A stretch of DNA of 64,000 nt from an uncultured Tolumonas sp. (GTDB taxonomy: Bacteria; Pseudomonadota; Gammaproteobacteria; Enterobacterales; Aeromonadaceae), in the NCBI RefSeq assembly GCF_963556105.2, contig NZ_OY829944.1:1461501-1525500 (forward strand), read 5' to 3'. The notes beneath the pieces are model-generated. The model was given only the letters and a program-made list of their open reading frames with translations, was not told the origin of the DNA and did not search any database. This document shows positions 55,372-57,458 of the stretch, piece after piece. Position numbers and translations under genes: made by a program. The stretch's first letter is position 1; every line of letters begins with the position of its first letter.

Positions 55372-55391
55372 GATTTACCTCTATATGCTTA

Positions 55392-55443
55392 TAACTTCCA
55401 ATTGTGGGGCGGTTGAAAACCGTCCCACACTAATTGTTTGTTA
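55392..55443 (-). repeat. attC site, class G
   Basis: 52-bp site with CGG-TTGAAAA-CCG stem; useful intact reference for the altered site at 57115. Confidence 0.9.
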
Positions 55444-56632: not shown

Positions 56633-56708
56633 TAACTTTTAATTAAATGGCGGCACGTAGTGCCGTCCAGTGAGCAGCGTAGCGCGAACGTGTTTGAATT
56701 AGTTGTTA
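56633..56708 (-). repeat. attC site, class L
   Basis: 76-bp site with arm GCAGCGTAGCGCGAACGTG. Confidence 0.88.
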
Positions 56709-57119
56709 GGTATGAACAAAGAAAAGTCATTAATTAACAACAACAAAACTGGCTAAGTGGAACCACAGGCTGCAATGTTGCAACAGTGCCAGCTTTAAAC
56801 AACCGCTTGGAATTACTCGCCGACAATATCGAATCAGCGAAAATTGCAGAACATTCACACATTTTCATTTAATGAGCGGGCAGTGGGCGTAATTGCCACT
56901 ACGGCCAGATGATGAGCCGCTCAGGTGTTACACACTGACGGCGTTGAAGGTTGCCGAAGACGTAACCCGCGCAGGCTTTCAGTTTGCCACTTCACGTTAA
57001 TTCATGTGTTGCGCGAGGCAACCCACTCGCAGGAAGTGAACCGCTAACACCACTGGACCATCTGCACAGCCGCTTTAGGGCTCGAATTTGCCGCCACAAA
57101 TAAAGCCGTTTTTATTACC
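56709..57119 (-). repeat. Gene-less cassette, family B, copy 7
   Basis: Related to copies 4 and 6. No gene. Its right border is the palindromic attC. Confidence 0.82.
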
Positions 57120-57173
57120 TAACTTCCAATTGTGGGGCGGTTGAAAACCGTCCCACAATTGGAAGTTAGGTAA
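57115..57173. repeat. attC turned into a perfect palindrome
   Basis: The left half is a normal class G attC start. The right half is an exact inverted copy of it instead of the usual CACTAATTGTTTGTTA. Arms 57115-57136 and 57152-57173 pair over 22 bases without mismatch, with CGG/CCG and loop TTGAAAA inside. The neighbouring family C sequence resumes at TAACTGGTAG. The asymmetry that normal attC sites need is gone. Confidence 0.92.
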
Positions 57174-57458
57174 CTGGTAGTTGAGTTGAACTTGTTTATG
57201 GCTCGACGGGATTTTGCGAACCATCGTCGTTGTTGATAAACATTTCTATGTTCGGCCATAACTTGAGTTCACAACAGAATTTACTATTTTCACGACTCAA
57301 ATAATGCGTCGATTTTGAATTTATGGCTGAACTTGCTTTCGCTGAAATTGAATTCAACGCAAATCTTGCTGTGCCCAGAAGTGCAGGGAGCGACGTTGAA
57401 AATTTCGACAAACTGTCTACACCAGCGAAAAACAAAACACACAACCAACAAAACCAGT
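57174..57458 (-). repeat. Gene-less cassette, family C, copy 6
   Basis: Typical family C body, entered from the palindromic site. No gene called. Confidence 0.82.

Follow-up and report, generated by a model that had tools for sequence, protein, structure and literature searches.

The window, the 64-kb stretch of DNA analyzed here as a whole, lies within a chromosomal cassette array that occupies about 1.447–1.600 Mb of contig C1, the 2.39-Mb array-bearing contig of its genome (G000). At the locus of interest, the body of a family B cassette (56705–57119, − strand, start approximate) is followed by the body of a family C cassette (57172–57458, − strand), and a palindromized attC site with paired flanks spans 57115–57173 on the + strand. 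The C body measures 287 bases as cut, and its nearest copy differs at 6 of the 287 positions. The altered attC belongs to cassette C, because all 13 C copies found carry this attC type at that end (12 normal and one altered) and the attC at their other end varies. Reading frames of annotated size around the site are on the − strand, and the + strand is therefore the bottom strand. Cassette B is probably non-coding, since its longest stop-to-stop frame has 103 codons. Its family comprises 112 copies (18 in G000, 9 in G002, 38 in G003, and 47 in G009), mostly about 318 or 412 nt long, and the consensus RNA structure of the family is weak (z of −2.2 to −4.2 against 20 column shuffles). Rfam gave no match anywhere in the 64-kb window.

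We built an attC model from 24 sites of the same array. Across 180 kb around the array (G000:C1:1430001–1610000), this model finds 171 matches at E ≤ 0.01, all on the + strand, a count that is partly built in because the model comes from the array itself. Normal sites of the class have paired R boxes, an unpaired spacer, and right-arm columns 35, 39, and 43 each unpaired in the consensus. In the 24 sites, 97.2% of cells are paired, 10 of 18 pairs have changed on both sides, and the stem covariation score is 0.426 versus 0.137 in shuffles, with the structure predicted from the same alignment. Two further counts were set aside as evidence. The observation that pairing stops after four pairs in 452 of 479 sites is imposed by the search pattern, which itself demands a T beside both R boxes, and the 324 model matches in relatives include sequence common to two G002 contigs and rely on a model from the own array.

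The altered site departs from this class in its symmetry. Inverted-repeat analysis gives arms of 28 nt (57115–57142 and 57146–57173) that are 96% complementary around a 3-nt spacer, the loop at 57143–57145. Pairing is perfect over 22 bp, between 57115–57136 and 57152–57173, and the sole mismatch in the arms is G57137 opposite T57151, a G·T. The first-pass annotation had described the right half as the exact inverse of the left over 22 bases, reaching into the end of cassette B, and these positions bear it out. No perfect inverted repeat with a spacer of up to 200 is longer in the 180 kb, where the runners-up measure 14 and 13 bp. The palindrome is absent from the other 33 of the 34 sites in the genome that have the same apical core (≤2 mismatches).

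The altered site is predicted to fold into a hairpin of −31.0 and −29.1 kcal/mol on the two strands, and on both strands the spacer and two of the three extrahelical bases are paired. As it stands today, the site thus no longer shows the unpaired spacer and extrahelical bases expected of an attC. It scores 36.4 bits against the model, the lowest among the matches of 51–56 nt, all others of which reach at least 54.7 bits; the 17 model matches that score below it are of a longer class of 73–78 nt. T57151, which is unpaired in the class consensus, was kept when the right arm was overwritten.

Comparison with other copies indicates which arm changed. In 12 of the 13 cassette C copies of the array, the right arm reads CCCACACTAATTGTTTGTTAACTGG, letter for letter; one of these 12 provides the normal attC at 55391–55443 on the + strand that served as the comparator in the first-pass annotation. 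The altered copy reads CCCACAATTGGAAGTTAGGTAACTGG instead, at an edit distance of 8. On the other side, 16 copies of the B end were found (15 with ATTACC and one with ATTATC), and because all 16 run into TAACTT, the left half is ancestral. The same kind of junction, with a B end running into an unmutated C attC, lies 53 kb away, at window coordinate 110067 and thus outside the window. The identity of the 12 other C copies and this unmutated junction together imply that the right arm is new and the left arm old. The pre-event state, judged by the 24 sites of the array, has what is expected of an attC, namely, an imperfect hairpin with paired R boxes, an unpaired spacer, a covarying stem, and single unpaired bases. 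The same 12 copies and junction also document a pre-existing imperfect inverted repeat at this place, the starting point of a quasipalindrome correction.

The overwritten tract can be delimited closely. The old state, CCGTCCCACA-CTAATTGTTTGT-TAACTGG, has become CCGTCCCACA-ATTGGAAGTTAGG-TAACTGG. On the + strand at 57158–57170, ATTGGAAGTTAGG replaces CTAATTGTTTGT, and all 12 other C copies keep the old letters. Together with the TAA that follows, the new letters are the exact inverse of TTACCTAACTTCCAAT (57115–57130), including the TTACC of cassette B. The source is therein the ancestral left arm (57115–57136, + strand), which consists of the B end TTACC (57115–57119), the R box TAAC, and the left stem. 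Immediately before the tract, CCCACA (57152–57157, + strand) is common to the old right arm and the copied arm, and the T57151 that precedes it was kept. Copying must have begun inside CCCACA because the preceding T of CCGTCC survives. After the tract, TAA (57171–57173, + strand) offers a 3-nt microhomology for the return to the original template. As the first-pass annotation had stated, normal family C sequence resumes after the tract; the exact return point it had named is ambiguous within TAA, which is common to the copied arm. The tract is thus bounded on both sides by sequence common to both arms, a second hallmark of quasipalindrome correction.

These boundaries bear on two alternatives that invoke recombination. 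Cleavage by integron integrases takes place at the R box. A direct integrase product, for example, one of recombination between attC arms or strands, has some appeal, since the site is a substrate of the enzyme and the genome contains an intact integron integrase gene (444.8 bits, on another contig). The junctions, however, fall inside CCCACA and in the TAA beyond the R box, neither of which is an integrase cut, and we regard such a product as extremely improbable. Alternatively, a second cassette or attC could have been inserted inverted, and a deletion between two TAA could then have left only the inverted arm. An attC recombining through its top strand can indeed insert inverted, and TAA is found at both ends of the tract. 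This route requires two rare events, its inner junction would lie inside the stem and not at an integrase cut, and the genome retains no inverted copy of the arm from elsewhere: a search for inverse matches of the arm with ≤3 mismatches returned one, the site itself. We consider it very unlikely.

A different concern is that the palindrome is a fold-back chimera at the hairpin. Hairpins are prone to sequencing and assembly errors, and the site is known here from assembled sequence alone. A chimera would, however, run on in the inverted sense. Here, the C cassette continues normally beyond TAA, inside a 2.39-Mb contig, and the flanks on both sides are normal in sequence and orientation; an artifact therefore has only a slight chance of being the explanation. 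Point mutations accumulated one by one under selection for a strong hairpin, such as a terminator, would be compatible with the high predicted stability of the product. Against this, the edit distance is 8 with no intermediate among the 13 C copies, the letters of a neighboring cassette have been copied, and the + strand has no T run after the hairpin; gradual change of this kind is barely plausible.

Quasipalindrome correction by template switch, the mechanism proposed in the first-pass annotation, is the simplest one-step explanation of the copied arm, the ancestral copies, and the shared boundaries. We hold it highly likely that the + strand switched at CCCACA and returned at TAA, leaving a site that would hardly recombine on either strand and cassettes B and C as a unit that would move only as one. 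The clustered change and the lack of intermediates suggest a single replication step, and we infer both the replication mechanism and the strand. In the proposed sequence of events, the nascent + strand, as the leading strand, would already have been extended past the left arm and the loop to CCCACA in the right arm. Its 3′ end would then have annealed to TGTGGG in a left arm, which could be its own after a fold-back or that of the lagging template strand after a switch. From there, synthesis would have copied the left arm outward past the R box, taken in 5 nt of cassette B, and resumed on the original template at TAA. Initiation on the − strand at TAA, over 3 nt, is possible but less favored. 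The copy passes the integrase crossover point and carries 5 nt of cassette B; the event therefore postdates the joining of B and C, and B has remained the neighbor since then. Among the points that weigh against this explanation are the single occurrence of the event and a return microhomology of just 3 nt.

Folding predictions are consistent with a switch at CCCACA. A + strand that ends there (57107–57157) is predicted to form a 12-pair stem with a paired 3′ end at −11.8 kcal/mol, and 0 of 200 shuffles are as good. In this fold, the register is slipped by one base, as GGGG allows, and the A of CCCACA is paired. For a + strand shorter by 5 nt, the last base is left unpaired and the fold is ordinary, with an energy of −5.6 kcal/mol (z of −1.3) that 18 of 200 shuffles match. 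Folding of the whole normal site predicts a CTA bulge on the + strand, exactly the first letters lost, and the − strand folds otherwise.

The direction of replication speaks to the strand. The dnaA gene is at C1:59010, and of the stretches sampled for GC skew, all 17 between 0.1 and 1.95 Mb are positive and all 3 farther on are negative. From the dnaA position and the skew of the flanks, the fork should run rightward through the array, making the nascent + strand the leading strand; this direction rests on the flanks and dnaA because GC skew inside the array is near zero (−0.005). Mutations of the quasipalindrome type are described as strand biased, with a leading-strand preference (PMC7202029), and a leading nascent + strand agrees with the bias described there.

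The first-pass annotation had gone further and taken the site as direct evidence that attC hairpins form in the cell. As stated, this claim is not supported, because an intermolecular switch between strands would give the same product hairpin-free; only the route that uses the nascent strand as template needs a hairpin. The match between the switch point and the paired 3′ end of the predicted fold lends the hairpin indirect support. The sequence is compatible with both the intra- and the intermolecular route and fixes neither the route nor the strand.

The expected consequence for recombination can be gauged from published VCR mutants. In a VCR in which the extrahelical bases were deleted and the central spacer was paired, bottom-strand integration fell 8.5 × 10^4-fold, and top-strand integration was 2.8-fold above a wild-type rate that is itself 8.2 × 10^−5 of that of the bottom strand (PMC2727003). 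For excision, deletion of the bases in one of two sites gave a rate of at most 7 × 10^−3, and deletion in both abolished it (PMC2727003). The mutant with both changes, mut20-VCR, has lost the same unpaired features as the altered site and provides the expected phenotype; it differs in being a lab-built version of another site, tested with IntI1 (PMC2727003). Unlike mut20-VCR, the altered site also has paired flanks beyond the R boxes and leaves one of the three unpaired bases as a G·T. By analogy, the altered site should be nearly dead on both strands. The first-pass annotation had foreseen "a site without strand choice", a description that is incomplete given the near-loss of recombination on both strands implied by the reported VCR mutant (PMC2727003). 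If the site is nearly dead, B and C should move only together, as one fused unit. Some observations count against a dead site: one of the three extrahelical bases persists here as the G·T, and in the VCR, deleting the extrahelical bases alone cost just 6.2-fold in attI × attC integration and pairing the spacer alone just 27-fold in integration (PMC2727003).

We searched for further cases in several collections. Comparison with relatives, as the first-pass annotation had suggested, confines the right arm of the palindrome (≤3 mismatches) to one of 75 family genomes, namely, its own. The exact palindrome pattern had 0 matches in public genome contigs, in collections that may omit records very near the own genome, and the right-arm pattern had 0 in viral contigs. 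When 881 bases around the site were compared with plasmids, five records were returned, each aligning over just 62 bases (87.1%) that begin at query position 820, outside the palindrome. No second palindromized attC was seen among the top repeats listed for G002, G003, and G009 (364,289 bases, spacers to 120), for five further genomes (338,334 bases, spacers to 60), or for 20 loci (356,047 bases, spacers to 100); some of the scanned stretches have no visible array. Several longer repeats were rejected by eye as attC hairpins of this kind, namely, those of 19 bp in G003, 17 bp in G009, 17 bp in G123 and G326, 20 bp in L113, 19 bp in L122, and 18 bp in L126. The 16-bp repeat seen in L128 belongs to an ordinary attC, with its spacer and a bulge intact.

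The process itself is known; its attC target and the consequence appear to be undescribed in the literature searched, where we found no earlier report of a template-switch or palindrome change at attC (few subscription papers were covered). The E. coli thyA hotspot and lacZ QP reporters share with our case an arm copied from the other arm, a more perfect repeat, and a return to the template (PMC7202029). Unlike those cases as described, the target here is an attC of a natural array, and the copy passes the recombination point into the neighboring cassette. Template switching also creates and maintains RNA hairpins, where perfect stems likewise arise by arm-to-arm copying (PMC8794818). The cases described there concern structured-RNA genes across species, whereas here we have one event in a DNA recombination site that needs an imperfect stem.

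The orientation of the array invites a wider reading. Large chromosomal integrons are reported to have their bottom strand preferentially on the leading template (PMC11023631); here, the bottom strand of the attC sites is on the lagging template. The single-contig relative G003 has the same arrangement, with dnaA at 2,438,921 (−) and attC (−) at 0.947–1.036 Mb among the matches listed, taking fork direction from dnaA alone. In both G000 and G003, the array has no adjoining integron integrase, and each genome has a single full-length match elsewhere. In G003, this gene is at 3,446,721, about 1.0 Mb from dnaA on the side opposite to the array, and the dnaA-to-array and dnaA-to-integrase distances add up to about 2.4 Mb. 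Two of the integron integrase copies in G256 have beside them a 20-bp inverted repeat (L113:19685–19810 and L114:195–320), which ends in ATAAC/GTTAT and encloses an AT-rich spacer of 86 bases; one arm letter differs in L114.

Same-body cassettes offer a view of how attC sites change more generally. Among 329 same-body pairs, the attC differ by 0–5 edits in 250 and by at least 8 in 79, with none between. This gap looks like whole-site exchange, a pattern that counts against general maintenance of stems by arm copying. The same body is found with a quite different attC in 13 of 56 body clusters (arrays of G000, G002, G003, and G009). In 72 of the 79 divergent pairs, likeness ends 7–9 nt inside the body-side attC end; the whole attC was possibly exchanged at the body-side R box by top-strand recombination.

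The function of an attC depends on a few unpaired bases that differ between its arms, and a known replication error erases exactly these differences. The well-polarized case described here shows that such erasure can happen in a natural array, as a natural counterpart to an engineered dead site. It also suggests how two cassettes can become locked together, and it makes the meeting of attC arms at the replication fork testable. A more speculative and rather doubtful extension is that template switching in attC stems acts as a standing force on arrays, ending the mobility of sites, fusing cassettes, and being favored where the bottom strand lies on the lagging template, as it does in this genus, opposite to the usual orientation reported for large chromosomal integrons. 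If this were true, palindromized sites would preserve a fossil record of attC arms in close contact at the fork.
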